Assembly (NCBI RefSeq): GCF_900102495.1
Contig: NZ_FMVQ01000002.1
Location: 1 to 64,000, forward strand
Length of the DNA stretch: 64,000 nucleotides
Reading direction: 5' to 3'
Source of the DNA: Nitrosospira sp. Nl5
GTDB taxonomy: Bacteria > Pseudomonadota > Gammaproteobacteria > Burkholderiales > Nitrosomonadaceae
Below the pieces are notes generated by a model. The model was not told the origin of the DNA. It searched no databases and worked only from the letters and a program-made list of their open reading frames with translations. Numbering within the stretch: position 1 is the stretch's first letter; each line of letters begins with the position of its first letter. A program made the translations under genes and the position numbers. Shown in pieces: positions 4,664 through 63,427 of this stretch.

Positions 4664-7195
4664 ATGGCAAAGCCGGATTTATTAAAGGCCTACCGCGCCA
4701 AACGCAATTTTTCCATCACATCCGAACCATCTGGAATCGCCAAGCGGGGTAAAAGTACCGGAGCGGTGCTGTCGTTTGTCGTCCAGAAGCATTGGGCGAC
4801 CCGCTTGCATTATGATTTCAGGCTTGAGCTCGATGGAACAATGAAGAGTTGGGCGGTGCCGAAAGGGCCCAGCTTCGATCCTCACGACAAACGCATGGCC
4901 GTCCATGTCGAGGACCATCCCATTTCATATAATCGCTTCGAGGGCCAGATTCCAACGGGGCAGTATGGCGCGGGTAAAGTGATTGTTTGGGACAAGGGAA
5001 CCTGGATTCCCCTTGAGGATCCGCATAAAGGTTATCGTGAGGGCAAGCTGAAATTCGAACTGCGCGGCCACAAGTTAAGGGGTCATTGGGCGCTGGTTCG
5101 CATGAAAAATACAGAGGAGAAAAAGAAGGAGCCCTGGCTGTTAATTAAAGAGAAGGATGAGTACGTCCGGCCCGCGAGCGAATATAGTGTTGTGGATGAA
5201 ATGCCTGATAGCGTGGCCAAACTGGAATCCGAGGGGATTTCAAAACGTGCCGCGCTCGTCAATGACGTACGGCCATCCAAAAAAAAACTTTCCGGTTTGC
5301 CCAGCGGTGCGGCTGAAGCTGATCTTCCCCGTATCATGCAACCCCAGCTTGCAACTCTCGTCGACGCGCTTCCGAATCAGCCCGCTGACTGGATTTATGA
5401 AATCAAGTTCGATGGCTATCGAATACTGGCCAGAATAGACGGCAGGAAAATACAGTTGTTCACTCGTAATGGGAACGACTGGTCGCACAAGTTGCCCGAT
5501 CTCGTGAAAGCAATAGGCAGAATGCGTCTGAGACCCGGTTGGCTAGACGGCGAAATCGTCGTGCCGAACGAGAACGGCATTCCGGACTTTCAGGCCCTGC
5601 AGAACGCCTTTGACAATTCCCGGACGCAGAACATTGTTTACTATTTATTTGATATCCCTTTCTATGATGGCCATGACTTAAGAGCTGCTCCCCTTACCGA
5701 ACGACGGGAATTTCTGAGAACACTCTTTAAAACACCACCTCCGGAGCAGGTGCGCTTCAGCGAGGCCTTTGATGCACCGGCCCGCGATATTGTTGCATCA
5801 GTATGTCGCATGGGGCTGGAAGGGGTGATCGGCAAACGCAAGAGCGCAACGTACGTTTCACGCCGCTCGCCGGATTGGATAAAACTCAAGTGCAGCCAGC
5901 GGCAGGAATTCGTTATCGGCGGTTATACGGACCCGCAGGGGTCCCGTATTGGTATAGGCTCGCTTCTGCTCGGCTTTTACGATGATGACCAAAAGCTTCG
6001 GTACGCTGGTAATGTGGGCACGGGATTTAGCGATAAAACGCTTCACGAATTGAAGGCGAAGTTGGACAAAGTCGCGGCTATCCATAGTCCTTTTATCAAT
6101 GCCAGTGGTATCGGCAAAAAGGCGCATTGGGTTCGGCCCACATTGGTGGCTGAAGTTTCCTTCGGCGAATGGACGCGGGATGGCCATATTCGTCATTCGG
6201 TTTTTCACGGTTTGCGCACTGACAAGAAAGCCGAGCTTATCAGGCGCGAGAAGCCGGTGCATCCAAGTGACATAAATCCTTCAAGAATGACTTCGATTCC
6301 CTCTTCCTTGCGCGTGACCCATCCTGAACGCGTGATCGACCCGTCCAGTGGATTCACCAAAATGGACCTCATACGCTATTACTCGCTGGTGGCTCCTTTG
6401 ATGCTGGAACATATCAAAGGAAGGCCGGTATCGCTGGTACGCGCACCTGATGGGATTGAGGGACAGCTGTTTTTTCAAAAACATTGGGAAAAGGAGAATA
6501 TGCCAGGAGTTGCCCAGCTCGACCCCGCATTGGACCCGGAGCATGAACCGCTGATTGAAATTTCAACCGCTGAAGGACTTCTGTCCGCCGCGCAAATGAA
6601 TGTCGTCGAGATTCACACCTGGAACGCTACAAAGAATGCCATCGGCAAGCCTGATCGAATGACTTTCGATCTGGATCCTGGAGAAGGGGTGCAGTGGGCA
6701 GCCATGCAGGAATCGGCGCAGCTTGTCCGTGTGTTTCTCCATGAGTTGGGGCTGAAATCTTTTCTCAAGACCAGCGGGGGAAAGGGTTTGCACGTTATCG
6801 TTCCGCTTAAAAGGCTGCGGGATTGGGACACCGTCAAAGATTTCTCGCAAGCAATCGTTCAGCATCTGGCTGCGACCATACCGCAGCGTTTTGTAGCGAA
6901 AAGCGGACCGCGTAATCGTATTGGGAAAATCTTTATTGATTATTTACGCAATGGTTTTGGCGCAACTACCGTCTCCGCCTGGTCAGTTCGCGCTCGCCCC
7001 GGTCTGGGCGTGTCCGTGCCTCTGGCATGGGAGGAACTGGAGTCGCTGACGAGCGCCAGCCGCTGGTCGGCCTCGAATATTCACGACCGGCTGGATAAGG
7101 GCAATGATCCCTGGTCAGACTATGAGGCTGGCAGGCGGTCGATCCTCCCGGCAATGAAGACGTTGGGATTCAAACCTGATAAAAAAACACCGTAA
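4664..7195 (+). CDS. ligD: Multidomain ATP-dependent DNA ligase LigD
   Basis: The 843-residue enzyme carries all three NHEJ activities in the order phosphoesterase, ligase, polymerase. The 3'-phosphoesterase domain (about 30-165) has HYDFRLELDG and WAVPKGPS. The ligase domain (about 225-530) has the adenylation motif EIKFDGYR with Lys248 as the expected AMP acceptor, then LDGEIV and IKLKC. The primase/polymerase domain (about 545-830) has DLDPGEG with the catalytic Asp pair 669/671 and TSGGKGLHV. Together they trim, fill and seal ends held by Ku. The start ATG lies 3 bp after the ku stop, implying translational coupling. All key residues are intact. Confidence 0.96.
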   Translation: MAKPDLLKAYRAKRNFSITSEPSGIAKRGKSTGAVLSFVVQKHWATRLHYDFRLELDGTMKSWAVPKGPSFDPHDKRMAVHVEDHPISYNRFEGQIPTGQYGAGKVIVWDKGTWIPLEDPHKGYREGKLKFELRGHKLRGHWALVRMKNTEEKKKEPWLLIKEKDEYVRPASEYSVVDEMPDSVAKLESEGISKRAALVNDVRPSKKKLSGLPSGAAEADLPRIMQPQLATLVDALPNQPADWIYEIKFDGYRILARIDGRKIQLFTRNGNDWSHKLPDLVKAIGRMRLRPGWLDGEIVVPNENGIPDFQALQNAFDNSRTQNIVYYLFDIPFYDGHDLRAAPLTERREFLRTLFKTPPPEQVRFSEAFDAPARDIVASVCRMGLEGVIGKRKSATYVSRRSPDWIKLKCSQRQEFVIGGYTDPQGSRIGIGSLLLGFYDDDQKLRYAGNVGTGFSDKTLHELKAKLDKVAAIHSPFINASGIGKKAHWVRPTLVAEVSFGEWTRDGHIRHSVFHGLRTDKKAELIRREKPVHPSDINPSRMTSIPSSLRVTHPERVIDPSSGFTKMDLIRYYSLVAPLMLEHIKGRPVSLVRAPDGIEGQLFFQKHWEKENMPGVAQLDPALDPEHEPLIEISTAEGLLSAAQMNVVEIHTWNATKNAIGKPDRMTFDLDPGEGVQWAAMQESAQLVRVFLHELGLKSFLKTSGGKGLHVIVPLKRLRDWDTVKDFSQAIVQHLAATIPQRFVAKSGPRNRIGKIFIDYLRNGFGATTVSAWSVRARPGLGVSVPLAWEELESLTSASRWSASNIHDRLDKGNDPWSDYEAGRRSILPAMKTLGFKPDKKTP

Positions 7196-15772: not shown

Positions 15773-18700
15773 TTGAAAGCTAGAGACACGATGGTTTCTG
15801 AGCTTTTACTCCCCATTACGACCCGGCTTCGCAAAATTGGAAGGCCACGTGTTCCGCTCAGCAAGGAACTGCCGCTGCGGTCTGAGCTATTCAGCGCCGA
15901 CCAGATGGAGCTCTATGGCGGGATTCTTGCGGCCTCTCACGAATTATCCTCGAGTCGCGGCACGGATCAGCTTCTGGCGCGGCTGGATGAGAACGAAAGC
16001 ACGTTGTTCAGTATTTGTAACGTGCTGACTGAAGCAGTAACAGCCGATCGGCCGCTAACGCCAGCCGGCGAATGGCTTTTTGATAATTTCTATTTGATCG
16101 AAGAGCAGATCCGCACTGCCCGGCGTCATCTTCCCAAAGGTTATAGCCGGGAACTGCCCCTGCTTGCGCGGGGAACATCGGCTAATCTTCCACGTGTGTA
16201 CGACATTGCTCTGCAGGCTATCTCGCATGGTGATGGCAGGGTCGATACGGAGAGTCTCCGGCGTTTTGTCACGGCGTATCAGGCTGTTACCAATCTGCAG
16301 TTGGGAGAATTATGGGCGGTTCCCATTATGCTCCGGCTGGCGTTGATCGAAAATCTCCGCCGCGTTGGGGTGCATGTAGCCGCTGGCCGTACAGACCGGA
16401 ACCTCGCGGATGCCTGGGCTGACGAAATTACAAAGATTGCCGAAAAAGATCCCAAGAGTCTGGTTCTTGTCATCGCGGATATGGCGCGCTCTGATCCGCC
16501 GATGACTACGCCTTTCATTTCCGAATTGGTGCGGCGATTACAGGGGCAGGGGCCCGCGCTGACGCTCCCGCTGAACTGGATTGAGCAGCGGCTCGCTGAG
16601 TCCAATCAAACGATTGACCAGATGGTGCAGACGGGAAATCAGCAACAGGCGGCCGACCAGGTTTCGATCTCGAACAGCATCAATAGCCTGCGCGTGCTTG
16701 GCGCTATCGACTGGCGCGATTTTGTCGAAACGACCAGCATTGTCGAGCAGACACTGCGGGAAGATCCGGGCGGTGTCTACGGCCGGATGGATTTTGCTAC
16801 CCGTGATCATTATCGGCATGTGGTGGAGCGCCTGGCCAAGGCAAGCCCTGTATCGGAAGTGGAAGTTGCGCGGAGGGCGCTTAAGCTGGCGCGTAACAGG
16901 GCGGCAACGGATGGCGGCAATGCCAGAGCCCACGTTGGTTTTTACCTGATTGACAAAGGCTTGCCCGACCTGGAGGAGGCAGCGCAGGTACGCCTGTCAA
17001 TCCCGGAAAAACTTGGCCGGGCCGGCCGTCGGCATCCCTTGTTCTATTACGTCGGTGCGATCGTGCTAATAACGACGGGCCTCACGGGCAGCCTCTTGTT
17101 CAAGGCGTACGCCGACGGCGCGAACGAATGGTTGCTGGGGGTGATAGGCGTTCTATCGCTCTTTGCGGCGAGCCAACTGGCCATAGCGCTGGTGAACTGG
17201 GGAGCGCAATTGCTGGTGAAGCCGCATTCGCTGCCACGGATGAATTTTTCCGTGGAAATACCTTCGGCGTTTCGTACGTTGGTAGTGGTTCCAACAATGC
17301 TGACCAGCAATTCTGATATTCCCAATCTTGCCGAAGCGCTTGAAGTTCGATTTTTGGCCAACCGTGACGACAATCTTTATTTCGGTTTATTAACCGATTT
17401 TCAAGACGCGGACCGGCAAACGCTTCCGGAAGACGAAACTTTGCTGCGGCTTGCACGTGAAAGTATCGAAGAGTTAAACAAAAAGTATCCCGGCCCGGCC
17501 GGCAATGATTCGATTGAAGCGGCCCGCTCGGCGGTAGGCGCTAAGGGACCGTTCTTTCTGTTTCATCGCCCGCGCCGGTGGAACCCGCGTGAACGGCTCT
17601 GGATGGGCCATGAACGCAAACGCGGGAAACTTGCGGATTTGAATGCACTGCTGCGTGGTGGGGGAAGCGACGCATTCATGCTGATCATCGGCAACACCGA
17701 TGTGCTGCCCGAGGTGAAATATGTGATCACCCTCGACACCGACACGCAATTGCCGCGGGAGTCGGCTCATCAGTTTGTCGGTGCAATGGCTCATCCGTTG
17801 AATCGTGCGCGGCTTGACATGACCGGCACGGATGGAAACAACATCCTCATAACGGAGGGCTATGGAATTCTGCAACCTCGTGTCGCTGTAAGCCTATCGA
17901 GTACAAACTACTCTCGATACGCATGGCTTTTCGGCGGCGAAGCCGGGATTGATCCGTACACGCGGATTGTCTCCGACGTTTATCAAGATTTGTTCCATGA
18001 AGGCTCCTTCGTCGGCAAGGGTATCTATGACGTTGATGCATTCGAACAGGCGCTTTGCCTCCGTCTTCCCGAGAATCGAATTCTAAGCCACGATCTCCTG
18101 GAGGGATGCTATGCCCGGGCAGGATTATTGAGCGATGTGCAGTTGTATGAGGGGTTCCCTTCGCGCTATAGCGCAGATGTGAGTCGGCGCCACCGGTGGA
18201 TTCGAGGGGACTGGCAACTGGCAACCTGGTTACTATCACGCGTGCCGGGGATGGATGCGAGCTATCACCCCAATCCGCTATCGGCATTGTCGCGGTGGAA
18301 GCTGATGGACAATCTCCGGCGCAGCCTCGTTCCGATGGCCTTGACGCTGCTTCTGCTGTTGGCATGGATGACATTGCCCGATGCGTGGTTGTGGACGTTG
18401 GCGGTGCTTGGCACACTGGCTATTCCCGCGGTAATAGCCATCATTTCCGATCTTCTGAACAAGCCGTTCGACGTGCCGTTGCGACAGCATATCCTTGCTT
18501 CGGTGCGTGGCGGGGGACGACACTTCGGGCAAATATTATTTACATTGGCCTGCCTTCCCTACGAAGCATATTTCAGCCTCGACGCGATCATTCGCACCCA
18601 CGTGCGGCTTTTGATCACACGTCGTCGGCTTCTCGAATGGAATCCGTCGCGGGAAGTCGAGCGCGAGTCCGATTCGGCAGTTGCTAAAAAGGAACGTACC

Positions 18701-21700
18701 AGCCTCGGCGCTTCCTTTCGATCGATGTGGATTGCCCCCACAACCGCAGTCGCGGCTGTGAGCGGAGTCGCAATGACGTCACCGTTCGCATTGATCGCCG
18801 CATTGCCGATACTGTTGTTATGGGCCGGTGCTCCCGCGATTGCCTGGTGGATAAGTCAACCGCTTCCTCCCAAGAGCGCGGAGCTAACCGCTGGACAAAT
18901 ACATTTTTTGCGCCAGCTTGCACGGCGGACCTGGTTCTTCTTCGAGACCTTCGTCGGGCCAAAGGATCACTGGCTGCCGCCAGATAATTTTCAGGAGCAC
19001 CCTGTCGCGGTGCTCGCGCATCGCACATCCCCGACCAATATGGGCATGGCCCTGCTCGCGAACGTTGCCGCCCATGATTTTGGCTACATCGGTATTGGAC
19101 AACTCATTGAGCGCACGGCAAATACGCTGGAATCAATGGAAACGCTGGAACGGCACGACGGCCATTTTTACAACTGGTACGACACAGAAACGAAAGCACC
19201 ATTAACGCGCTATATCTCAACAGTGGACAGCGGTAACCTTGCGGGCCATCTTTTAATATTGCGCGCGGGACTGTTGGAGCTCGCCGACGCACCAGTTATC
19301 GGCGAACAAGTATTTCTGGCATTAACCGATACCCTGCAGATTCTTGAAAAGATAGCGGGAACTCCCTCCGCAAGTGCTCTGGCACAGTTCGAAAAGGTAC
19401 TCATGGCCGCGGCCGGAACTCGTCCCCTTACCGTTGAGAGCGCACGCGTTGATCTCGACCGGTTGGTTGCCTGCTCAAGGATACTGGTCCAGGAGATGGC
19501 GGAAGATCCGCAGACAGCTTCCTCCAGTGAAGCGTATGAATGGGCGCAGGTATTGAACAGGCAATGCGAAGGAGCGCTCGCTGACCTGATCAGCCTTGCC
19601 CCCGCGGAGGGAGGTGGAAATAACTCAGCGCGTACCGGCGAGATTCCTTCCTTGCGGCAACTCGCCTGCCAGGATAACGAGCGTGCGCGCGAGCAGCTGG
19701 CCGCGCTCGAACATCTTGCGCTTCAGGCAGGTGAAATGGCGCAGATGGCATATGGCTTCCTGTTCAATCACGCGCAGCGGCAACTTTCAATTGGATACAA
19801 CGTCGGTGAACGTCGGCTGGATGCCAGCTACTACGATTTGCTCGCCTCGGAGGCGAGACTTTGCAATTTCGTCGCGATTGCACAGGGGGAACTGCCGCAG
19901 GAAAGCTGGTTTGCGCTGGGCCGGATGCTTACCACCTACGGCGGAGAACCCGTTTTGTTATCCTGGAGCGGTTCGATGTTCGAGTATCTCATGCCGCTAC
20001 TGGTGATGCCGACGTTTGACAACACGCTTCTCGATCAGACCTGCAAGGCCGCGGTGGATCGGCAAATCGCATACGGCGAGGAACGTGGAGTACCTTGGGG
20101 TATTTCAGAATCTGGCTACAATGCTGTCGACGTTCAATTCAATTATCAGTATCGCGCATTTGGCGTCCCTGGTCTTGGACTCAAACGCGGTCTCGGGGAA
20201 GATCTCGTCATCGCCCCGTATGCTTCGGTGCTGGCTTTAATGATCGCGCCGGAGGCTGCTTGCCGTAACCTTCAACGGCTTGCTGGGGAAGACCTGGCTG
20301 GCAAATTTGGTTTTTATGAGGCGGTCGACTATACGCCGACACGGCTGCGGCGCGGCGAAACACGCGCCGTGGTGCGCTCGTTTATGGCCCATCACCAGGG
20401 TATGAGCCTGCTCTCCTTGGTATACCTGTTGCGAAATCGCCCGATGCAACGGCGGTTCGAATCCGAGCCGTCATTTCAGGCGACAATGCTGTTGCTTCAG
20501 GAGCGGATTCCGAAGCCTACGCTTTTCCGTTCTCAAGCTGCCGAGCTCCCCGATGTTCGCGTGACCAAGGAGCTTCCAGACATGCCGATGCGCATGCTGA
20601 CAACCGCGAACACACCGATTCCAGAGGTACAACTTCTATCGAATGGCCGGTATCACGTCATGGTTACCAATAGCGGAGGTGGAAGTAGCCGCTGGAAGGA
20701 TCTTGCCGTCACCCGCTGGCGAGAAGACAGCACTTGCGACAACTGGGGCAGTTTCTGTTATTTGCGCGACGTGGCGAGTGGCGAGTTCTGGTCAAATACT
20801 CACCAGCCTACGTTAAAAGAAGCAAAGCGTTATGGAGTTCTTTTTTCCGAAGGACGTGTCGAATTCCGTCGCCGCGATCTCGATTTCGACACGCACACGG
20901 AGATCTCGGTGTCGCCCGAAGATGACATCGAGTTGCGACGGGTTCGAATCACCAACCGTGCCTGGACGCATCGCACCATCGAAGTCACGTCATATGCCGA
21001 GGTGGTACTTGCAGCGCCGGTAGCGGATGCGCAAGCACCGGCTTTTGGTAATCTTTTTGTGCAGACGGAAATACTCTCCGACCGGCACGCGATTCTTTGC
21101 AGCCGGCGGCCACGCTCCCAGAGCGACTCGGTACCCTGGATGTTTCATTTAATGGCGATACGTGGAATCGCGACCGAATCAATCTCCTACGAGACAGACC
21201 GGATGGCATTCATCGGACGTGGAAGGGATGTGTCGGCACCACTGGCGATGGTCGATCCGGCGCCGCTTTCCGGGAGCTCCGGCTCGGTTCTTGACCCGAT
21301 TGTGGCGATTCGACAGCGGGTTACCATCGAACCAGGCGAGTCTGCGACAATCGATATCGTTACCGGGGCGGGCGATTCGCGTCACGCCGCCATGAGCCTG
21401 GTCGATAAATATCAGGATCAGCATTTGTCGGACCGTGTTTTTGACCTCGCCTGGACGCATAGTCTGGTCGTATTGCGGCAGCTCAACGCCACCGAGACCG
21501 ATGCCCAACTGTTTGGCCGCTTGGCCGGCTCGGTGCTCTATGCGAATGCGTATCTGCGTGCCGATGACGTTGTGCTGAGCAAGAATCAGCGCGGCCAGTC
21601 GGGACTATGGGGATATGCCATTTCCGGCGATTTGCCGATTGTGCTGCTGCAGATCAGCGACGCAGCGAATATTGATCTTGTGCGGCAATTGGTGCAAGCG

Positions 21701-24457
21701 CATGCCTACTGGCGCGTGAAAGGGTTGGCGGTTGATTTGATCATCTGGAACGAAGACCACTCCAGCTATCGGCAGCTCCTGCACGATCACATCATGGGGT
21801 TGGTCATCGGCAGTGCTGAAGCCCATGTGCTTGACCGTCCAGGCGGTGTTTTCATTCGCCGCGCCGAACAGATTGCTTCCGAGGACCGTATCCTGTTGCA
21901 AACCGTTGCACGGGTCATTATTTTTGACAGCAAAGGTGATCTGGCGGAGCAGATCACGCGTCGAATTCCCGCAGACTTGCCGGTTCCGGCGATCAGGTTG
22001 GAGCCGGTTCGTCAGCCCGATCCTGCTCAAATCGATGAATTGCCGCACCGTGCGCTGCTTTTCGACAACGGGCTAGGAGGATTCACTCCCGATGGACGCG
22101 AATATATCATAACCACCGGGCAGGATTTGACAACTCCGGCACCGTGGTCAAATGTCCTGGCAAACTCGCAGTTCGGAACCGTTCTCTCCGAAAGTGGCCA
22201 GGCGTATAGCTGGGGGGAAAACGCGCATGAGTTCCGCTTGACGCCCTGGAACAATGATCCCGTTTGTGATCCCGGCGGGGAGGTTTATTATCTGCGCGAT
22301 GAAGAAAGCGGTTATTTCTGGTCGCCCACGCCCCTGCCAAAACGGGGAGCGACGCGCTATGTTACCCGGCATGGATTCGGTTACAGTGTTTTTGAGCATG
22401 CGGAGGACGGCATTCATTCCGAGCTCTGGGTCTATGTGGCACTGGATGCGGCAGTGAAGTTTGCGGTATTGAAAGTGCGTAATGAATCGGGGCGGCTGCG
22501 CAAGCTTTCGGCAACAGGATGCGTCGAATGGGTATTGGGTGATCTGCCGGAGAAGAGCAGAATGCATATTGTCACTGAAATCGATCCGCCAAGCGGAGCC
22601 TTGCTTGCACGCAATCCCTATAATAACGAATTCCCCGGCCGCGTCGCTTTTTTTGATGTCGATGATACGACGCATAGTGTGACCGGCGACCGCACCGAAT
22701 TTATCGGCCGCAATGGTAGTTTCAACAATCCGGCAGCAATGGCTTCGGGAGAGCTTTCAGGGCGAGTAGGGCCTGGTCTCGACCCCTGCGGCGCTATCCG
22801 GGTTCCGTTTGAGTTGCTGGATGGCCAAACACGGGAAATTGTCTTCCGTTTGGGCGTCGGTTTTCACGTGGAAGATACTCTCAAGCTCATGCAGCGCTTC
22901 CGTGGACCGGGGGTGGCGCATGAAGTCCTGGAAAGAATACATCGCTACTGGGGACGTACGCTCGGCACCGTACAGGTGGAGACGCCCGATCCTTCCCTCA
23001 ACGTGATGGTCAACGGCTGGCTCGTATACCAGGTAATGGCTTGCCGTCTGTGGGGGCGTAGCGGCTACTATCAAAGCGGGGGGGCTTTCGGATTCCGTGA
23101 TCAGTTGCAGGATGTGATGTCCCTGATTCACGCTGAACCCATCCTTGTTCGCGAGCATCTGCTGCGATCAGCGGGGCGTCAGTTTATCGAGGGGGATGTT
23201 CAGCACTGGTGGCACCCGCCAGGGGGTCGCGGCGTAAGGACGCGCTGTTCGGATGATTATCTCTGGCTGCCCCTGGCGGCCTGCCGTTATATTGCCGCTA
23301 CCGGCGATACCGGCGTGCTGGACGAATCCATTTCTTTCCTTGAAGGGCGCCAGGTCGGCGCCGATGAGGATTCGTACTACGATTTGCCGGTTCGCTCCGA
23401 GCAGTCTGCGGATTTATACGAGCACTGCGTGCGCGCGGTCGTGCATGGCCTTCGATTCGGTGAGCATGGCCTTCCGCTAATGGGCAGCGGTGACTGGAAC
23501 GACGGGATGAATCTGGTTGGGTTCCACGGACACGGAGAAAGTATCTGGCTGGCTTTCTTTTTGTATGACGTGCTCATTCAATTTTCCGATCTTGCGCAAC
23601 GGCGTGGCGATATGGCCTTTGCCGAACGCTGCAAAAAGGAGGCTAGCCTGTTGCGAAAGAATATTGAACGGCACGGCTGGGATGGTGAATGGTATCTCCG
23701 TGCCTTCTTCGATGACGGTTCTCCACTGGGATCTTCCACCAATCCGGAGTGCAGAATCGATTCGATTGCCCAGAGCTGGTCGGTATTGTCTGGAGCTGGC
23801 GCGGGCGAGCGCCAAAAGCAGGCAATGAAAGCGGTGAATCAGTACCTTGTGCGGCGGGACGCAGGTCTGGTTCAACTTCTCGACCCGCCCTTTGACCAAT
23901 CATCGTTGAATCCCGGTTATATAAAAGGCTACGTCCCGGGTGTGCGCGAGAATGGAGGCCAATACACGCATGCGGCCATCTGGGCGACGATGGCCTTTGC
24001 CGCATTGGGAGATTGTGCGCGGGCATGGGAGTTGCTGGGTATGATCAATCCGGTGAATCATGCGCAGACGCCGGAAGCGGTTGCGGTCTATAAGATCGAG
24101 CCATACGTTGTTGCCGCGGACGTTTATGCGCTTTCTCCGCATACCGGACGTGGAGGATGGTCGTGGTATACGGGTTCTGCCGGCTGGTTGTACCGCATGA
24201 TGCTGGAAACCCTGCTGGGGTTGACGTTGAAGGAAGACAAATTGTACTTCAAGCCCTGCCTGCCCGCGGATTGGAAGACGTTCACTGTGAACTATCGCTA
24301 TCGGGAAACAGCCTATCGCATTACTGTCATCCAGACAGAAGATGACAAGGAAAGCCTCACTATCGACGGAGTCGAACAACATGATTCTGTCATTCCCTTG
24401 GTCGATGACAGAGTCCAGCACGCTGTTGAAGCTCGGCTAAGGAATTCCTCCAAGTGA
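15773..24457 (+). CDS. ndvB: Cyclic beta-1,2-glucan synthase-type glycosyltransferase (NdvB/ChvB)
   Basis: The 2894-residue protein has the full NdvB/ChvB architecture. Membrane segments lie at about 420-440 and 450-475. A GT84 glycosyltransferase domain (about 495-830) contains TLDTDTQLPR near 650. More membrane segments are near 850-890 and 990-1025. A glycoamylase-like domain (from about 1040, TWFFFETFV, to about 1540) and tandem GH94 carbohydrate-binding/phosphorylase modules follow, with HWWHPPGGRG near 2477 and GSGDWNDGMN near 2570. Such enzymes use UDP-glucose, build a protein-linked beta-1,2-glucan, trim it by phosphorolysis and cyclise it; the product fills the periplasm in osmotic adaptation. 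The start is a TTG with GGAG 10 nt upstream; an in-frame ATG at 15791 has only a weak site. No stop or frameshift is seen over 8.7 kb. Confidence 0.93.
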   Translation: MKARDTMVSELLLPITTRLRKIGRPRVPLSKELPLRSELFSADQMELYGGILAASHELSSSRGTDQLLARLDENESTLFSICNVLTEAVTADRPLTPAGEWLFDNFYLIEEQIRTARRHLPKGYSRELPLLARGTSANLPRVYDIALQAISHGDGRVDTESLRRFVTAYQAVTNLQLGELWAVPIMLRLALIENLRRVGVHVAAGRTDRNLADAWADEITKIAEKDPKSLVLVIADMARSDPPMTTPFISELVRRLQGQGPALTLPLNWIEQRLAESNQTIDQMVQTGNQQQAADQVSISNSINSLRVLGAIDWRDFVETTSIVEQTLREDPGGVYGRMDFATRDHYRHVVERLAKASPVSEVEVARRALKLARNRAATDGGNARAHVGFYLIDKGLPDLEEAAQVRLSIPEKLGRAGRRHPLFYYVGAIVLITTGLTGSLLFKAYADGANEWLLGVIGVLSLFAASQLAIALVNWGAQLLVKPHSLPRMNFSVEIPSAFRTLVVVPTMLTSNSDIPNLAEALEVRFLANRDDNLYFGLLTDFQDADRQTLPEDETLLRLARESIEELNKKYPGPAGNDSIEAARSAVGAKGPFFLFHRPRRWNPRERLWMGHERKRGKLADLNALLRGGGSDAFMLIIGNTDVLPEVKYVITLDTDTQLPRESAHQFVGAMAHPLNRARLDMTGTDGNNILITEGYGILQPRVAVSLSSTNYSRYAWLFGGEAGIDPYTRIVSDVYQDLFHEGSFVGKGIYDVDAFEQALCLRLPENRILSHDLLEGCYARAGLLSDVQLYEGFPSRYSADVSRRHRWIRGDWQLATWLLSRVPGMDASYHPNPLSALSRWKLMDNLRRSLVPMALTLLLLLAWMTLPDAWLWTLAVLGTLAIPAVIAIISDLLNKPFDVPLRQHILASVRGGGRHFGQILFTLACLPYEAYFSLDAIIRTHVRLLITRRRLLEWNPSREVERESDSAVAKKERTSLGASFRSMWIAPTTAVAAVSGVAMTSPFALIAALPILLLWAGAPAIAWWISQPLPPKSAELTAGQIHFLRQLARRTWFFFETFVGPKDHWLPPDNFQEHPVAVLAHRTSPTNMGMALLANVAAHDFGYIGIGQLIERTANTLESMETLERHDGHFYNWYDTETKAPLTRYISTVDSGNLAGHLLILRAGLLELADAPVIGEQVFLALTDTLQILEKIAGTPSASALAQFEKVLMAAAGTRPLTVESARVDLDRLVACSRILVQEMAEDPQTASSSEAYEWAQVLNRQCEGALADLISLAPAEGGGNNSARTGEIPSLRQLACQDNERAREQLAALEHLALQAGEMAQMAYGFLFNHAQRQLSIGYNVGERRLDASYYDLLASEARLCNFVAIAQGELPQESWFALGRMLTTYGGEPVLLSWSGSMFEYLMPLLVMPTFDNTLLDQTCKAAVDRQIAYGEERGVPWGISESGYNAVDVQFNYQYRAFGVPGLGLKRGLGEDLVIAPYASVLALMIAPEAACRNLQRLAGEDLAGKFGFYEAVDYTPTRLRRGETRAVVRSFMAHHQGMSLLSLVYLLRNRPMQRRFESEPSFQATMLLLQERIPKPTLFRSQAAELPDVRVTKELPDMPMRMLTTANTPIPEVQLLSNGRYHVMVTNSGGGSSRWKDLAVTRWREDSTCDNWGSFCYLRDVASGEFWSNTHQPTLKEAKRYGVLFSEGRVEFRRRDLDFDTHTEISVSPEDDIELRRVRITNRAWTHRTIEVTSYAEVVLAAPVADAQAPAFGNLFVQTEILSDRHAILCSRRPRSQSDSVPWMFHLMAIRGIATESISYETDRMAFIGRGRDVSAPLAMVDPAPLSGSSGSVLDPIVAIRQRVTIEPGESATIDIVTGAGDSRHAAMSLVDKYQDQHLSDRVFDLAWTHSLVVLRQLNATETDAQLFGRLAGSVLYANAYLRADDVVLSKNQRGQSGLWGYAISGDLPIVLLQISDAANIDLVRQLVQAHAYWRVKGLAVDLIIWNEDHSSYRQLLHDHIMGLVIGSAEAHVLDRPGGVFIRRAEQIASEDRILLQTVARVIIFDSKGDLAEQITRRIPADLPVPAIRLEPVRQPDPAQIDELPHRALLFDNGLGGFTPDGREYIITTGQDLTTPAPWSNVLANSQFGTVLSESGQAYSWGENAHEFRLTPWNNDPVCDPGGEVYYLRDEESGYFWSPTPLPKRGATRYVTRHGFGYSVFEHAEDGIHSELWVYVALDAAVKFAVLKVRNESGRLRKLSATGCVEWVLGDLPEKSRMHIVTEIDPPSGALLARNPYNNEFPGRVAFFDVDDTTHSVTGDRTEFIGRNGSFNNPAAMASGELSGRVGPGLDPCGAIRVPFELLDGQTREIVFRLGVGFHVEDTLKLMQRFRGPGVAHEVLERIHRYWGRTLGTVQVETPDPSLNVMVNGWLVYQVMACRLWGRSGYYQSGGAFGFRDQLQDVMSLIHAEPILVREHLLRSAGRQFIEGDVQHWWHPPGGRGVRTRCSDDYLWLPLAACRYIAATGDTGVLDESISFLEGRQVGADEDSYYDLPVRSEQSADLYEHCVRAVVHGLRFGEHGLPLMGSGDWNDGMNLVGFHGHGESIWLAFFLYDVLIQFSDLAQRRGDMAFAERCKKEASLLRKNIERHGWDGEWYLRAFFDDGSPLGSSTNPECRIDSIAQSWSVLSGAGAGERQKQAMKAVNQYLVRRDAGLVQLLDPPFDQSSLNPGYIKGYVPGVRENGGQYTHAAIWATMAFAALGDCARAWELLGMINPVNHAQTPEAVAVYKIEPYVVAADVYALSPHTGRGGWSWYTGSAGWLYRMMLETLLGLTLKEDKLYFKPCLPADWKTFTVNYRYRETAYRITVIQTEDDKESLTIDGVEQHDSVIPLVDDRVQHAVEARLRNSSK

Positions 24458-28866: not shown

Positions 28867-30960
28867 CTAAGGCTTGGCAGGTTCTTCCTCTTGTTCCAGC
28901 AGTTTGTCAATTGCGGCAACCAGTTCCTGCGGCTCGACCGGCTTGGTAAGATACTCCTGATAGCCGGCAGCCATTGCGGTGATTCTGTCTTCCAGGCGCG
29001 CAAATGCCGTGAGCGCGATCGCCGGGATCTTGCCGCCGCGTTCGGCAGGAAGGCTCCTCACCTCTCGAATGAATTGATATCCGTTCTTCTCCGGCATTCC
29101 GATATCGCTGATAATGACGTCCGGCTTTTCGGTCCCTAAAAGTTCCAATCCTTCCCTTGCAGTTCCGACAGCGATTACGCTCGCTTGACAGTGAATCAAT
29201 ATTTGTTTGATAAGATCACGGGCGTCTGGCTCGTCATCAAGCACTAACACTTTTATCCCGGGGAGCAGAAGATTCGCTCTGTCGAAGGGACTCCGCTTCA
29301 GGGATAAAGGCTCCTTTTTTCCATTAGTACTCAAACTCACGGCGGCAAGCGGCAGGTTGACGGTGAATGATGCTCCTTTACCCATCCCAGCGCTTTCCGC
29401 GCGAACTGTTCCGCCATGCAGTTCCACCAGTTGCTTGACGATGGCGAGGCCCAGACCCAGCCCGCCATACTGTCGAGTCAGCGAAGGATCGGCCTGCCGA
29501 AAGCGATCGAAAACATAGGGCATGAACTCCGGTGAAATACCCATGCCCGAGTCGTTGATCTTGATTTCGAGGTACGAGCCTATCTGCTCAACGACAACTT
29601 CTATTCTGCCACCCTTGGGGGTAAATTTTATCGCATTGGAGAGGAGATTCCAGAAGACCTGCTGCAGCCGGTTGGAGTCACCCGATATCGGACTCACCCG
29701 CCGGTCAATTGATTTTTGCAGGATAATGCCTTTGGCTTGAGCGGTGGGGTTCACTGACTCAACTGCTGCTTCGACCAGGCTGGCAATGTCCAATCGCTGC
29801 ATATCGAGCCTGACTTTTCCGGAGATGATGCTGCTCATTTCAAGCAAGTCCTCGATGAGCTTATTTTGTGCCCGAGCATTTCGCTCGATGGTTTCCAGGC
29901 CCCGGCGAACGTCCTCGTTCTTCATGGTTCCGCTCAAGATGAGCTGTGCCCACCCCAGGATTGCATTCAGCGGTGTGCGAAGTTCATGGGAGAGCGTTGC
30001 CAGAAACTCGTCCTTAAGTTGACTGGCCCGCTCCGCCTCATTCCTGGCGATGCGTTCCTTTTCAAGCAGCTGCCTCTTTTCCGCATCTGCCAGAACTAAT
30101 GCTTCACCGAGTTCCGCCACTTCATTGTTCGTGGCTTTGCCGTAACGGCTGGGTCGGATGCCGCGGGTGATGCCGGCCACCTGACGTCCGAGTTCGGCCA
30201 GAGGCAGCAGTATTCCGAGACGGGTATACAAAACGATAACCACCGTAGCAAGGAGGGCGATGAAAATGAGCACCATCTCGGACATGAGGAGGCGCTCAAG
30301 TCGGGCCAGCCCGATGTTTGATTCCGCTTGCATGCGTTCATTGAACAAATCCCTGAATTTCTGGATTGGCGCCATGATGCTGGCTTTTTTGGCGCTATAG
30401 CCCTCGCCAAACAATAAGCTTATGGCGAATCCCCGGTTGGGCGCGCGGCGTACCGTAAAATTTCCTCGCCCGTCGTCATATAGGCCTTTCAGGGCCGCGA
30501 ATGCTTCTCTTTCCACTTCGACCAGCCTGTCCGAATTTATCTTTGCTTCCTGCAACAGTGCAAATTCTTCCTCCTTAAAATTTTCCCTGCGCAGCATTTC
30601 CAGTAAAGGAACCGTATCGCCCCGGTCGACGGTAGGAACTTTTCCCGCGGCGGCAAGGTGCCAATAGGTGGCGGAATAATTCAGCGGGCGTGGCCGTTTG
30701 CCCTCGCGGATATCGAGTATGTAAAAAAAATAATCCTTATAGAGCGGATCTCCGGTGATCACGTAATTGCGCGCCATATTGGTAAGATCCTCGGAGCTTT
30801 GAAGTAGCTCATCGGCAAGCAGGATTGCACGGAATCGCCGGTGTTCATTGCTGTTAATGTTGTCTCGAATGCTCAGCGAATGAAATACCAGCATTCCGAT
30901 GCTTGTCAGCAGGAGCGCGAGGGCCACGTTGGAAAATTTGGTAAAGCTTTTTATATTCAC
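28867..30960 (-). CDS. Hybrid sensor histidine kinase / response regulator
   Basis: The GTG at 30960 has GGGAG upstream and is preferred to an in-frame ATG at 31035. The product (697 residues) has a membrane segment near 10-30 and a roughly 170-residue periplasmic sensor with [12 protein letters not shown] second membrane segment (near 240-260) and a HAMP-like linker follow. The HisKA domain has phosphoacceptor His325 in [15 protein letters not shown]; the HATPase has [11 protein letters not shown] and [11 protein letters not shown]. The C-terminal receiver has Asp619 in [13 protein letters not shown] and Lys in LTKPVEP. No cognate DNA-binding regulator is adjacent. The sensor domain is nearly duplicated in the kinase at 59671-61644. 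Confidence 0.92.
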
Positions 30961-31307: not shown

Positions 31308-32318
31308 ATGCATTCATATCGCTCCCGTCTTGTGTTTGCGGTTTTCGTAATTCTGCTTAGTTTGGGTGCGGCGGCCGCAGCCCTGCATATCTCTTACAGC
31401 AATCATCCCGATCCTGCCTGGGAAATGTACGAGGACTTCAATAAGGCATTTGCCAGACACTGGAAAGCACGATCCGGAATTGACGTTACAGTCAAGCAGG
31501 CACAGAGCAAATCGGGCGTGCCCATTCATGCTGCCATAGACGGACTTGATGTGGTTACCCTTGCCTTGTTCTATGATCGAAATGCGCTAAAAGAAAATAG
31601 CAGGTTCGCACTGCCTGATTGGCAGGAGCCTATCCCGCAGAACTCGCCCTATACTTCGACCGTTGTATTTCTGGTACGCAAAGGTAACCCGAAGAAGGTG
31701 AGAGATTGGCATGACCTCGCACGGCCCGGTGTCGAATTGATCACCCCCAATCCAAAGACTTCAGATAACGCCCGTTGGAATTATCTGGCGGCATGGGGCT
31801 ATGCGCTCAATCAACCCGGGGGCAGTCAAGCGAGCGCACTCGAATTCGTCAAGAAATTGTTTGCCAACGTCAAGGTGCTGGATTCCGAGACCCGCAGCGC
31901 GATGACGACCTTCATCGAGCGTGGCATCGGCGATGTACTGTTGACGTGGGAAAACGAGGCCCACCTGGTTGTCAGAGGACCGGATGGGGATAAGTTTGAG
32001 ATAGTTACCCCGTCCCTGTCAATCCTGGCCGAGCCCACAGTCAGCGTGGTTGACAATGCAACCGATCAGGGCGGTGCGAGCGAGGTCGCTAACGCTTATC
32101 TCGATTACCTCTACACCACGAAAGCGCAGGATATCGCGGGCAAACATTATTATCGCCCGCGTGATGAGAAGATTGCGGTGAAATATGCAATGCAGTTTCC
32201 ACCCCTCGATCTCTTCACTATTGACGGGGTCTTTGGCGGTTGGAAGGAAGCGCGGAAGGTGCATTTTTCCAATGGCGGAGTTTTCGACCAGATTCAGGCG
32301 CAACTCGTGCTTAAATAG
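31308..32318 (+). CDS. sbp: Sulfate/thiosulfate ABC transporter periplasmic binding protein
   Basis: The 336-residue exported protein has a signal peptide (VFAVFVILLSLGAAAAA) and the Sbp/CysP pattern: LHISYSNHPDPAWEMYEDFN, TVKQAQSKSGVPIHAAIDGLD, VVTLALFYDRNAL and the later PNPKTSDNARWNYLAAWGYAL signature. It should bind sulfate or a related oxyanion in the periplasm. AGGAGG gives a strong ribosome site. No permease or ATPase gene is adjacent, so it either feeds a transporter encoded elsewhere or has another role. A terminator follows. Confidence 0.9.
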   Translation: MHSYRSRLVFAVFVILLSLGAAAAALHISYSNHPDPAWEMYEDFNKAFARHWKARSGIDVTVKQAQSKSGVPIHAAIDGLDVVTLALFYDRNALKENSRFALPDWQEPIPQNSPYTSTVVFLVRKGNPKKVRDWHDLARPGVELITPNPKTSDNARWNYLAAWGYALNQPGGSQASALEFVKKLFANVKVLDSETRSAMTTFIERGIGDVLLTWENEAHLVVRGPDGDKFEIVTPSLSILAEPTVSVVDNATDQGGASEVANAYLDYLYTTKAQDIAGKHYYRPRDEKIAVKYAMQFPPLDLFTIDGVFGGWKEARKVHFSNGGVFDQIQAQLVLK

Positions 32319-58416: not shown

Positions 58417-58878
58417 ATGGAACGCCTCACCATATCGCTGAATGATCAACTCGCCGAGCAATTTGATGCTGTAATGCATAAGCGCGGTTATTTCAATCGT
58501 TCGGAAGCCATGCGGGACCTGATACGGGATCTGTTGGATACCGTCCGTTCAGAAGAGCACGTCGAAGGCCGTTGTATTGCCACACTCAGCTATATATACA
58601 GTCATCACGAAAGTGAATTGGCCAGGTTGCTGGCCGCGGTGCAACACGATCATCATGACCTTACGCTATCCACCATGCATGTCCATGTGGACCATGATAG
58701 TTGTCTGGAAGTAATCATCCTAAGCGGGACTATCAAGAACGTAAAGAATTTTGCCAATCATATTATTGCTACACGCGGAGTAAGGCATGGCAAGCTGCAT
58801 CTTTTGCCAGTCGATCCTGTACAAGAGCTGTTTTCTCCTGATCCTCTACTGCAGGTTCGCAGCACCGCTCTTGCATGA
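58417..58878 (+). CDS. nikR: Nickel-responsive regulator NikR
   Basis: The 153-residue protein has an N-terminal ribbon-helix-helix (ERLTISLNDQLAEQFD, then FNRSEAMRDLIRDLL) and a C-terminal ACT-like nickel-binding domain. The square-planar Ni ligands are present: His77 region QHDHH, then His88 and His90 in MHVHVDH and Cys96 in DSCLEV, aligning with E. coli His76/87/89/Cys95. Ni-bound NikR controls nickel uptake or nickel enzyme genes. Urease genes begin 5 kb downstream, making them and the porin plausible targets. GGAG precedes the ATG. Confidence 0.95.
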   Translation: MERLTISLNDQLAEQFDAVMHKRGYFNRSEAMRDLIRDLLDTVRSEEHVEGRCIATLSYIYSHHESELARLLAAVQHDHHDLTLSTMHVHVDHDSCLEVIILSGTIKNVKNFANHIIATRGVRHGKLHLLPVDPVQELFSPDPLLQVRSTALA

Positions 58879-58941: not shown

Positions 58942-59577
58942 CTATTCCAGCAACTTATGCTCGGTTACATAGCGGACTAATTGCGCATTGTTCCGCATAT
59001 TCATTTTTTCCAGAACGCGAGCACGGTAAGTACTCACGGTTTTAGCACTTAATGTCAGTTTTTGCGCAATTTCCGTTAGAGATATCCCGACGGCGATAAG
59101 CTTGAGGACATTGAGCTCCCGATCGGAAAGCGTGGAATGCGGCAATATTGCCGACGTTGGGCCGAGGTCGAACAGCAGTTTCTCCGCCAGTTTCGGATCG
59201 ATGTATTTTCCTCCGTTTGCCAAGCGCCGGATAACAGATATCAGCAGATCGGTCGGACTGTTCTTGGTAAGATAGGCGGACGCGCCTGCGCGTATTGTCC
59301 TGACAGCATATTCATCCTCATGATACGTACTCAACATCAGCACCTGATACGTTGCATCATCGGTCATTATCCGTTTTAGCACTTCCAGTCCATTCATACC
59401 CGGCATGCTGACATCCAGCAATGCCACATCCCATCCACCTTGGCGCATTTTTTCCAGGGCTTCAAGTCCGTCTGTCGCTTCACCGACAACTACGATGTCC
59501 GCTGTTTCGGCAAGGATCCGTTTTAGCCCGTCCCGGAAAAGCCTGTGATCATCAGCGAGAAATACTTTGACTATCAT
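58942..59577 (-). CDS. NarL/FixJ-type response regulator
   Basis: The 211-residue regulator has a receiver domain with phosphoacceptor Asp55 (VALLDVSMPGMNG), Asp pair near 9-10 (LADDH) and Lys near 105 (YLTKNSP). A LuxR-type helix-turn-helix follows (about 148-200; LSDRELNVLKLIAVG, EIAQKLTLSAKTVSTYRARV). It is the probable partner of the adjacent histidine kinase 93 bp upstream on the same strand. The target genes are unknown. Confidence 0.93.
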   Translation of the reverse strand: MIVKVFLADDHRLFRDGLKRILAETADIVVVGEATDGLEALEKMRQGGWDVALLDVSMPGMNGLEVLKRIMTDDATYQVLMLSTYHEDEYAVRTIRAGASAYLTKNSPTDLLISVIRRLANGGKYIDPKLAEKLLFDLGPTSAILPHSTLSDRELNVLKLIAVGISLTEIAQKLTLSAKTVSTYRARVLEKMNMRNNAQLVRYVTEHKLLE

Positions 59578-59670: not shown

Positions 59671-61644
59671 TCATGAAATCTCTTCCTTTTGTTTCATTGG
59701 CAGATGCACGCTAATGACAGTACCTTGCTGTCGCCCGCTGGTAATATCAATATTACCTCCCAGTACGGCTGCCCGTTCGCGCATTCCAAGCAGGCCAAAT
59801 GACTTTTTCTTTGCGGCGCCCGTCGTATCAAATCCCTTGCCGTTGTCGCGCACCTCGACAATGAAATCATCCGCGCTCTGGGACAGGGTGATTTCGACAC
59901 AGCTTGCTTCAGCGTGCCGTGTCACATTGGTCAGGGATTCCTGCACAATACGGAATATTGCCACAGTCTGATCTTCGTCCAGGTCAATCGGAGCCTCCAC
60001 CGGCTGAAATATGCAGCTTACGCCGCTATGTTTCCTGAATTCATCAGTCAGTTTTTTAATGGCCGATACGATTCCCAATCCCAGTGAAGCCGGACGCAGA
60101 TGTTCTGCAACATTGCGCACACTCTGATCTGCGTTGTCCACCAGCTCCGACATGTTACGCCGGATGATCTCCACTCTTTCGCTTCTATTATTTCCTCCAC
60201 TCTTCAGCAACGAGATTTCCAGGCGCAATGCCGCCAGAAGCTGACCCAGCTCATCGTGGATCTCGCGGGCAATATACTTACGGTCTTCTTCCCGCATCCG
60301 CTCCACATGCGCCGCAAATTCCCGTATTGCCGCATCCCGCACCCGAAGCTCCCGCTCCACCAGGATACGTGCCTCGGCCTGCTTGTGTTCCAGCCACTTG
60401 CCGAGATCGTCCCCGATGACGTCAATCAGGTTCTGTTCCTCTGGCAGCAAGAAAGGCTGGTCCTCACTGTAAAATACCTCCATCCAGCCTTGAGGCTTGC
60501 CGTAGACCAGGACTTGCTTTCGCAATACGCGGGTATGGTTCTCATCATATTGATCGGAAATAAACTGCTTGCCGTCGAGTTCGATTCTGATGCTGGTGGT
60601 ATGCGGGAATTGCATCGCCGCGCTCAGGTGCACAAAGATAGTCCGGCAAACTTCCTCCAGCGACCCTGATTCCATGCCGCGCCGGATCGCATAGAAACAG
60701 TTGATTTCCTTTAATCGCTCGCGCAGGAACTCCTCGACCTGTTTGAGTTTGGTGATTTCATGTTCAATGGCTTCCGCCATGGTATTGAAGTCGGCGCCGA
60801 GCTCAGCGATTTCATTGTGCGTGGAGATGTCGCAGCGGGTGGCATAGCTGCCCTGGGCGATGCTGCTTGCCTGGCGGCTGAGATCATCGAGCGGACGCAG
60901 GATATTACGGCGCATGTAGAAAGTAGCGATAGCCACGACGAGCAGAGCGCTGCACAGCACTGCCAGTATCAGCAGGATTTGCTGCTGGAATTCGGACTGC
61001 AGATTGCTCAGCGTGGTTTGCGTGCGGTTATCCAGCTCCCGCATGAATTGGCTGATCGGCGCCATGATTCTGGCTTTCTCAGCCTTATAGCGCTCGCCAA
61101 ACAACAGCTCGATAGCGAAATCGCGGTCTGCTGGACGAGATACGGTGAAATTTCCGTATCCATCGTCATATAACCCTTTTATGGCGGCGAAAGCCTGTTT
61201 TTCCAGATTAACCAGGTTGTCGGAATTCTTCTGCGATTGTTGCAGCAGGTCAAGTTCCCGTTCACTGAAACCTTCACGGCGCATCAAATCCATCAAGGAG
61301 ACTGTATTACCTAGCGCGCTCGGAACAGCCGGTTTGTTTACGCCCCAATAGGTAATCGGGTAATCCTGGGGACGCGGCCGTTTCCCGTTACGGATGTCGA
61401 GGATCTCGAAAAAGAAGCGCTCGTAGATCGAGTCACCAGTCATTACGTAGCTGCGCGCCATCTTGGTGAGGTCTTCGGAACTCTGGAACAACTCATTTGC
61501 AAGCTGCAGAGACCGGTGCTTTTGGCGCTCGGCTTCGGTGATATGGTCCAGGGTGCCCAGCACCTGGGAAGAAAGCAGTATCAGCAGGCTGAGTACCAGT
61601 ACGATGAAGATAAGACAAAAATTGGTGAAAAGACCGATCCTCAT
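59671..61644 (-). CDS. NarX-like HAMP sensor histidine kinase (HisKA_3)
   Basis: The 657-residue protein has a membrane segment (about 8-30) and a periplasmic sensor of about 170 residues with LDIRNGKRPRP and KGLYDDGYGNFTV. A second segment (about 228-248) and HAMP (RNILRPLDDLSRQASSI) follow, then a GAF-like region. HisKA_3 has EIHDELGQLLAALRLE (phosphoacceptor His near 463). The HATPase has DNGKGFD and FGLLGMRERAAVLGG. It pairs with the NarL-type regulator. The sensor is very similar to that of the hybrid kinase at 28867-30960. Confidence 0.94.
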   Translation of the reverse strand: MRIGLFTNFCLIFIVLVLSLLILLSSQVLGTLDHITEAERQKHRSLQLANELFQSSEDLTKMARSYVMTGDSIYERFFFEILDIRNGKRPRPQDYPITYWGVNKPAVPSALGNTVSLMDLMRREGFSERELDLLQQSQKNSDNLVNLEKQAFAAIKGLYDDGYGNFTVSRPADRDFAIELLFGERYKAEKARIMAPISQFMRELDNRTQTTLSNLQSEFQQQILLILAVLCSALLVVAIATFYMRRNILRPLDDLSRQASSIAQGSYATRCDISTHNEIAELGADFNTMAEAIEHEITKLKQVEEFLRERLKEINCFYAIRRGMESGSLEEVCRTIFVHLSAAMQFPHTTSIRIELDGKQFISDQYDENHTRVLRKQVLVYGKPQGWMEVFYSEDQPFLLPEEQNLIDVIGDDLGKWLEHKQAEARILVERELRVRDAAIREFAAHVERMREEDRKYIAREIHDELGQLLAALRLEISLLKSGGNNRSERVEIIRRNMSELVDNADQSVRNVAEHLRPASLGLGIVSAIKKLTDEFRKHSGVSCIFQPVEAPIDLDEDQTVAIFRIVQESLTNVTRHAEASCVEITLSQSADDFIVEVRDNGKGFDTTGAAKKKSFGLLGMRERAAVLGGNIDITSGRQQGTVISVHLPMKQKEEIS

Positions 61645-62056: not shown

Positions 62057-63427
62057 ATGAAGAATTTTGAGAAGAGGGCACAAAAAGGGGTCAGTCAAGC
62101 AGCAACATTGGCTGAGAGCGCTTCACCGGACAATGGGATCTGGAAACAAAGAGCAAATTTCTTTGCGCAAGTCGCGCTGCTGGTGGCATTAGCGGCGGTT
62201 TTCCTGTTTTCGCCGCCCGAGGTCCGGGCCATGGCGGGCGATAAAATCGAGGCCGCACCCCCGGCTAAAACCGAGAGCAAACCTAAATGGGCGATTGATG
62301 ATACCAAATGGATGACTCTCGGCGTAGGTTTCCGTGGCTCGGGCATATGGACGGAAAATCGCGCAACAGACAGTTTCAGGAATGATTTCAGTATCGACAA
62401 CGCGCGTGTCTATCTCAATGGGCAGGTCCATAAATATGTCAAATTCGAAATCAACACTGAATGTTTTTTCTGTAATAACACCAGTGGGACGGATAATCCC
62501 AAGATGTCCTACAACATTCTGGACGCGATAGGGAAGGTCGAGATTAACCGGTATTTCAATGTCTGGGGCGGGCGCATGCTAGTCCCCACGGAGCGGGGCG
62601 AATTGAGCGGTCCTTTCTTCCAGGCTACGCACGATGCCTTCAAGACACCGTTTTTTCCGCAGGATTTCAGCATCAAATTTGGCAGCGGCGGCGCGGGGCG
62701 CTACGGCCGTGACGACGGCGGCACGTTCTGGGGCAGCCTTGAGCCAGGTTTCATCAAAGGCACGCTCGGCTACGCCATGGGCGTGTACAGAGGGCTCCAG
62801 TCGTCCAACAGCCTGGGGCCTAACCAGGGCGATAGCGTGCAGGTGGCCGGACGTGTCACCTATAACTTCCTGAACCCCGAAAAGAATCCTGGCTATTACA
62901 CCAGCAGCACCTACTTTGGCAAAGCCGGAGATATTCTGGCGCTCGCGTTCGGCACATCTTATCAAAAGAACGGTGCTGGCTCATTCGACCATCGAAGTGA
63001 TTTCCTGGGTCTTGTCGGCGACGTCCTGTTTGAAAAGGTTATGCCCAAAAATATGGGCGTATTTACCTTCAATGGAGAATACAAGCAGTTCTACGCCAAT
63101 TATTCCCCTGTTGCTTTTGCCGATCCGGGCTGTTTTTGCGTATTCGATGGAAAATCATGGACGGCTACAGGGCTTTACCTGATACCAGTCAAGGTAGGGA
63201 TCGGGCAATTCCAGCCTTACGGAAGATTTACCAGCGTTCAACCTAATCACAGCAGCAAGCGCGAGGAGATCGAGGGCGGCGTGAACTACATCATCGACGG
63301 ATTCAATGCGCGCATTTCGGCGTACTACCAGCACGGCGATCTGGTCACCAAGGGCATGAACTATGCGCCGGGCGTCATGGGCGAGAAGGCCGATGTCTTC
63401 AAATTATCGTTCCAGTTGCAAATGTAA
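62057..63427 (+). CDS. Outer-membrane porin (OprO/OprP-like beta-barrel)
   Basis: The 456-residue protein has a long N-terminal leader before the hydrophobic signal core (AQVALLVALAAVFLFSPPEVRA, about residues 34-55). A beta-barrel-like chain of alternating aromatic strands follows and ends in KLSFQLQM. Stretches such as VYLNGQVHKYVKFEINTE and GRMLVPTERGELSG resemble phosphate-selective porin O/P proteins. Two Cys pairs (CFFC, CFC) are unusual for a porin. The solute is unknown; the position 300 bp before ureD suggests urea or nickel uptake, by context only. Confidence 0.75.
   Translation: MKNFEKRAQKGVSQAATLAESASPDNGIWKQRANFFAQVALLVALAAVFLFSPPEVRAMAGDKIEAAPPAKTESKPKWAIDDTKWMTLGVGFRGSGIWTENRATDSFRNDFSIDNARVYLNGQVHKYVKFEINTECFFCNNTSGTDNPKMSYNILDAIGKVEINRYFNVWGGRMLVPTERGELSGPFFQATHDAFKTPFFPQDFSIKFGSGGAGRYGRDDGGTFWGSLEPGFIKGTLGYAMGVYRGLQSSNSLGPNQGDSVQVAGRVTYNFLNPEKNPGYYTSSTYFGKAGDILALAFGTSYQKNGAGSFDHRSDFLGLVGDVLFEKVMPKNMGVFTFNGEYKQFYANYSPVAFADPGCFCVFDGKSWTATGLYLIPVKVGIGQFQPYGRFTSVQPNHSSKREEIEGGVNYIIDGFNARISAYYQHGDLVTKGMNYAPGVMGEKADVFKLSFQLQM

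Follow-up and report, generated by a model that had tools for sequence, protein, structure and literature searches.

An unnamed CHASE3-like periplasmic sensor module in two histidine kinases of Nitrosospira sp. Nl5

CHASE3 (PF05227) is a periplasmic helical sensor found on many outputs, like the module described here. Several other bacterial sensors are four-helix bundles: the chemoreceptor domains of Tar/Tsr, PcaY, MCP2201 and Vc1313 (4HB_MCP_1), the PilJ-type sensors of NarX and NarQ (PF13675), and LytS and TorS, which work with solute-binding co-receptors. Kinases with docked binding proteins are the subject of a review (PMC6321045, as far as the accessible part of the article goes). The DNA analysed here (the window; 64,000 nucleotides, positions 1 to 64,000 of contig NZ_FMVQ01000002.1) encodes two histidine kinases with a common sensor. 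The shared region is real and represents a widespread, unnamed CHASE3-like sensor module of an ordinary kind that would be useful to name.

The NarX/NarQ-like kinase (59671..61644, minus strand) consists of TM1, sensor, TM2, HAMP, linker, HisKA_3 and HATPase_c, as read from its open reading frame and the Pfam matches to HAMP, HisKA_3 and HATPase_c. Its best NCBIfam similarity is to NarQ (194-655), under the NarQ cut-off. The hybrid kinase (28867..30960, minus strand) comprises, according to its open reading frame, Pfam and the upstream sequence, TM1, sensor, TM2, a HAMP-like stretch with no Pfam HAMP match, HisKA, HATPase_c and a receiver. The longest reading frame of the hybrid kinase has an ATG start at 31035. 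The GTG at 30960, which the preliminary description had given as the start, is probably the correct one and is preferred because AGGGAG lies about 10 bases upstream and the GTG aligns with the start of the NarX-like kinase. The longest open reading frame of the window is another one (15773-24457, plus strand, 2894 residues). Two hydrophobic segments flank the sensor in both kinases. In the NarX-like kinase the sensor covers residues 31-205 (61030..61554, minus strand), delimited by alignment, block identity and the predicted four-helix bundle; the stretch of the hybrid kinase aligned to these residues lies at 30340..30870 on the minus strand. A full-length kinase model built from one sequence reached a mean pLDDT of 46.5 and was discarded.

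The preliminary description had reported nearly matching sensors on kinases with unrelated catalytic halves. All four motifs that it listed are present in both proteins. BLASTP of whole protein against whole protein found 128/254 identical residues (E 9e-74) in a match that stops within the HAMP region. The sensor block (residues 31-205) has 57% identity (98/173), the HAMP block 38% (20/52) and the block after HAMP 9% (2/23), so that the exchanged unit consists of the periplasmic sensor and its attachment at HAMP. TM1 (8/30 identical, 27%) and the stalk with TM2 (6/38, 16%) have drifted, as judged from the aligned residues. For the catalytic halves, 'unrelated' is slightly too strong: HisKA, HATPase_c and receiver stand against HisKA_3 and HATPase_c, but HATPase_c is used by both kinases.

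Relatives were collected with one peptide pattern in species genomes, which yielded 580 stretches. Relatives accounted for 569 of them, so at least 569 loci exist. The best 80 of these 569 were fetched (E <= 1e-15) with up to 5 kb of flank. The alignment of 76 sensors comprised the two window sensors and 74 of the 79 distinct fetched ones, with five near-copies omitted; L070 and L106 had been filtered earlier. A Pfam scan of the 76 sensors (E <= 0.1) matched 13 families, none by more than two sensors, for example DUF2935 (two sensors, best E 0.003) and DACNV (one). The NCBIfam scan of the sensors also matched 13 families, none with more than three sensors and with a best E of 0.016. Both results are read as chance. 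With the whole kinases as queries, the best 25 of 162 and of 51 NCBIfam families matched TM2, HAMP and kinase parts. Among solved structures, a single-sequence search had a best E of 0.95 and revealed no relative by sequence; a profile search listed 26 matches, mostly myoglobin, with a best E of 0.12, again read as chance. The remark that the region is not a named domain is upheld for the 76 sensors by both model collections. In the open-licence literature, the titles and abstract starts of the matches listed hold no description of the sensor domain, which does not prove its absence in print, and no paper was found with the motif peptide strings or on a Nitrosospira histidine-kinase sensor domain.

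Profile-profile comparison by hhalign connected the sensor weakly to CHASE3, with 57% (E 1e-4) over 32 columns only; the reversed control had 0.4%. The aligned stretch spans helix 1 and the first part of helix 2, a hairpin with the motif RxYxxTGDxxYxxxY in common. Membership in the NarX/PilJ-type nitrate sensors (PF13675) was rejected, with an hhalign value of 2.9% and no match in the 76 sensors at E <= 0.1. The chemoreceptor family 4HB_MCP_1 (PF12729) is absent from the Pfam matches of the 76 sensors at the same threshold and gave an hhalign value of 0.2%. Input for hhalign were 14/15 CHASE3, 16/34 4HB_MCP_1 and 16/23 PilJ matches, reduced to 13, 13 and 16 rows after out-of-frame rows were dropped. 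CHASE3 and 4HB_MCP_1 themselves are connected by 54%, and the tie between sensor and CHASE3 is therefore a kinship at superfamily level. The common motif and the hhalign value would also suit a merely divergent CHASE3 domain, to be filed in that family. This is unlikely: only two of the 76 sensors match CHASE3 at E <= 0.1, the best E is 0.052, and the cut-off of 28 bits is unreached. The two full kinases have no CHASE3 match at E <= 1. The match is one hairpin, whereas the domain exceeds the 138 positions of the CHASE3 model, carries in addition a beta-hairpin and the conserved loop RNGxRPxxYxxxYW, and has no full-length profile match. The sensor is interpreted here as a family of its own, CHASE3-like and promiscuous as an input module.

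The predicted fold of this region is not new. An AlphaFold2 model from the 76 sequences (pLDDT 93.2) is a four-helix bundle with helices at 2-48, 51-64, 107-134 and 163-202 and the beta-hairpin before helix 4. The conserved loop motif is located on 31 residues between helices 2 and 3 (65-95), where the pLDDT drops to 74 and 66 in blocks of residues 71-90. The model and the hydrophobic segments together predict a four-helix bundle between two transmembrane helices. Foldseek with the model found no PDB match at E <= 0.001. A structural second look had bacterial chemoreceptor and kinase sensors in all of its first 28 of 50 rows, with Z 9.9-12.9, although unrelated helical bundles may reach Z of about 13-14 according to the tool's own note and the best sensor value of 12.9 falls within that. 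Neighbours were Vc1313 (Z 12.9), MCP2201 (12.5), HK9 (12.3), PcaY (11.7) and Tsr (11.2), further LytS (10.7), TorS (10.1), NarQ (10.0) and QseE-QseG (9.2). Designed bundles and one eukaryotic complex followed from row 29 onward (Z <= 9.8). The sensor has the same predicted fold as the four-helix-bundle chemoreceptor domains and, like them, chemoreceptor output in about half of the scanned relatives, but it lacks a sequence or profile match to them.

The PilJ-type sensors of NarX and NarQ, also four-helix bundles, have the same place as the sensor in the kinase at 59671, without a profile or model match. A NarX/NarQ-type sensor for nitrate or nitrite would be apt for an ammonia oxidiser, the catalytic half of this kinase is nearest to NarQ, and NarQ is among the structural neighbours. 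Such a function is nevertheless very unlikely for the module, given the missing PilJ match in the 76 sensors and the chemoreceptors that make up about half of the scanned relatives. Many of these chemoreceptors occur in organisms that are not known to be nitrifiers.

Conserved residues were evaluated in 17 profile-recruited rows, which had not been recruited by the DNA pattern; the partial match L148 was omitted. R64, R85, G87, E130, E148 and R207 are present in 17/17, and W100, Y66 and Y186 in 16/17. Less conserved are K190 (14/17), S55 and S56 (13/17 each) and T60 (12/17). The conservation of QSSDDLT in the alignment is partly built in, because the pattern [QHR]SS[ED][DN]LT[RKN][ML]A had served to collect the loci. 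Instead of forming a binding site, the invariant charged residues could make salt bridges with a structural role. Structural residues and the neighbour QseE-QseG would be in line with a bundle that senses the state of the membrane or envelope, or redox, without a small ligand. We regard this as quite improbable, as invariant Arg and Glu and near-invariant Trp and Tyr persist over divergent members with many outputs, and chemoreceptors usually read chemicals.

It is likely that the sensor is an unnamed periplasmic four-helix-bundle input domain, probably a ligand-binding dimer with signalling through its helices, and a distant cousin of CHASE3. The predicted bundle, held between two transmembrane helices, would probably act as a dimer and bind a small polar or anionic molecule. 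Helix movement, by piston or scissor, would pass via TM2 and HAMP to the attached output.

The sensor is present in 28 of 61 genomes, a set made up of the host genome and others of its genus, family and order: 23/23 for the genus, 5/14 for other genera of the family and 0/24 for other families of the order. An even sample of the phylum had the sensor in 20/299 genomes, the own genome included. The best 80 of the 569 loci have Nitrosospira genomes as the closest named sensor relatives and, by record titles, extend to Pseudomonadota, Thermodesulfobacteriota, Bacteroidota, Ignavibacteriota, Planctomycetota and Verrucomicrobiota; one 'Deltaproteobacteria bacterium' record was classed as Myxococcota in the rank assignment. 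Thirty plasmid records carry the sensor, and annotated genes under these matches code for a chemotaxis protein, once for a diguanylate cyclase. Plasmids of Piscirickettsia salmonis carry sensor relatives (H4-H7, H11-H13) with a chemotaxis annotation, except H13, which has no annotated gene.

The outputs attached to the sensor are diverse. Pfam was applied to 77 C-terminal stretches from 76 of the 80 loci (L063, L106, L112 and L127 were excluded as too short or broken), and this tally covers near relatives, the best 80 of 569, recruited by pattern. HAMP was found in 56 stretches, MCPsignal in 39, HATPase_c in 17, GGDEF in 11, HisKA in 10, HisKA_3 in 9, EAL in 4, a receiver in 3 and SpoIIE in 2. 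The chemoreceptor is the commonest output (39/77 of the stretches scanned). A quick tree of 123 sensors, several long branches of which are unsure, has 12 changes of output class; the least possible number is 4 and the shuffled mean is 57.8. Duplicate loci and fragments were omitted, labels were assigned by motif regular expressions and by hand, and 11/123 rows are without such a label. All 19 HisKA_3 sensors group together (SH-aLRT 97), next to a pair of GGDEF proteins and an unlabelled protein of a sister genus (98). The 8 hybrid-kinase sensors form a separate group (96), and both groups are located within a set of 47 rows (95) alongside GGDEF and SpoIIE proteins. The swap of the sensor between kinase classes, proposed from the two kinases of the window, is borne out by the 12 changes. 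These and the grouping of outputs indicate that output exchange is real, though restricted to a limited number of events, and that old joins persist.

As a special link of two kinases, as first described, the sensor was seen too narrowly: it is a widespread module with four copies in the 3.03 Mb host genome. Two are in the window. The third, 26 kb past the second, belongs to a HAMP-PAS-GGDEF-EAL enzyme. The fourth, on another contig, belongs to a hybrid kinase with PAS, HisKA, HATPase_c, two receivers and Hpt. The HisKA_3 and hybrid copies are 29-61 kb apart in 13/13 genomes with both on one contig, a count of related and not independent genomes, and are on separate contigs in three further genomes. 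This linkage suggests a local duplication of the sensor that would have been followed by fusion to different outputs.

The NarX-like kinase has a likely partner in a NarL-type response regulator (58942..59577, minus strand; Response_reg and GerE). Such a regulator is near the kinase in 9/9 HisKA_3-type loci (L049-L053, L055-L057, L059), on the opposite strand in L051. An outer-membrane porin-like protein (62057..63427, plus strand) is encoded divergently from the kinase and is a candidate target. It has no Pfam match and is weakly similar to the ExtI porin, under the cut-off. ExtI is a porin of selenite/tellurite operons. The porin-like gene adjoins the kinase in 7/9 loci; in the remaining two, the sequence available upstream extends for just 0.7 and 1.6 kb. 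A NikR-type nickel regulator (58417..58878, plus strand) neighbours the NarL-type regulator in 5/9 loci.

The hybrid kinase has a different neighbour, an orphan paralogue of sulfate-binding proteins (SBP; 31308..32318, plus strand; NCBIfam sulfate SBP over the cut-off). The gene is divergent from the kinase gene and its product is a candidate co-receptor. A complete sulfate cassette, with ATPase, CysT, CysW and its own SBP, is encoded separately on another contig; the orphan SBP is 56% identical to the SBP of this cassette. The divergent SBP gene is beside the hybrid kinase in 21/22 genomes (18/19 loci together with the window, G002 and G014). G013 has the hybrid kinase without an SBP at the site. 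The SGG loop, which we take to hold sulfate in 1SBP, is kept in 1SBP and the cassette SBP, and altered in 21/21 orphan copies. The alterations vary among the orphan SBPs and therefore do not form one new conserved site. Of the two window kinases, the hybrid kinase only has an SBP gene adjoining it. Among the 80 fetched loci, SBP genes are located only beside hybrid-clade kinases (L067, L068, L069, L074). In L067, from a Nitrosospira metagenome genome, the hybrid kinase appears to be split into two reading frames (4908-7013) by a frame break or an assembly error.

These data raise the tentative possibility that the orphan SBP is the cue-binding component and docks onto the sensor at its membrane-distal end, in which case the bundle itself need not bind the cue. 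The arrangement would be modelled on the three-component systems TorT-TorS or XylFII-LytS. Conservation of the divergent gene in all but one of the genomes, the transport system with its own SBP, the changed loop and the presence of LytS and TorS among the structural neighbours are consistent with a co-receptor. In these two systems a four-helix sensor works with a solute-binding protein, and the hybrid kinase here has a predicted four-helix sensor and an SBP gene beside it. A precedent is CuaD, a second SBP next to CuaSR that works as a sensor, according to the accessible part of the source (PMC10384115). The open-licence literature searched had no paper on an orphan SBP with a hybrid kinase in ammonia oxidisers. 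The restriction of the SBP gene to one clade, in which the locus differs from the LytS and TorS systems, its absence in G013 and the various loop sequences argue against a co-receptor. The association is known here from gene proximity, which is not contact.

A ligand-binding bundle, the preferred reading, could serve both kinases of the window with one cue. Among the other 74 rows, 47 positions are conserved to at least 90%; the two window sensors have the same residue at 42 of these and at 58/153 of the remaining positions. This contrast is expected from conservation and shows only that the family core is kept in both sensors. In a comparison of 8 hybrid with 19 HisKA_3 sensors, a set that covers the hybrid kinases of only part of the 22 genomes, both groups are fixed for the same residue at 32 positions and for different ones at two. 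The latter are residues 31-32, next to TM1, and there is thus no clear sign of a specificity switch. One cue class for both kinases is plausible and consistent with the conservation pattern.

In the host genome, the module would supply the input of four proteins: the NarX-type kinase, which has a NarL-type regulator, both hybrid kinases and the GGDEF-EAL enzyme. With these outputs in one genome, a single class of cue may act on transcription, phosphorelay and c-di-GMP simultaneously. A bolder and rather improbable proposal for Nitrosospira is that the three linked paralogues, on the NarX-type kinase, the hybrid kinase and the GGDEF-EAL enzyme, read one periplasmic cue with a repurposed, non-transport SBP as co-receptor, for a joint response in transcription, phosphorelay and c-di-GMP.

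Hundreds of proteins from several phyla carry a sensor of this family, among them chemoreceptors, kinases and c-di-GMP enzymes. Since neither Pfam nor NCBIfam, in the copies used here, has a model for the sensor, annotation there can rest only on the other domains of these proteins. With one profile and one ligand, the input side of every family member could be annotated. The linked copies in an ammonia oxidiser are a natural test of whether a module keeps its cue when the output changes.
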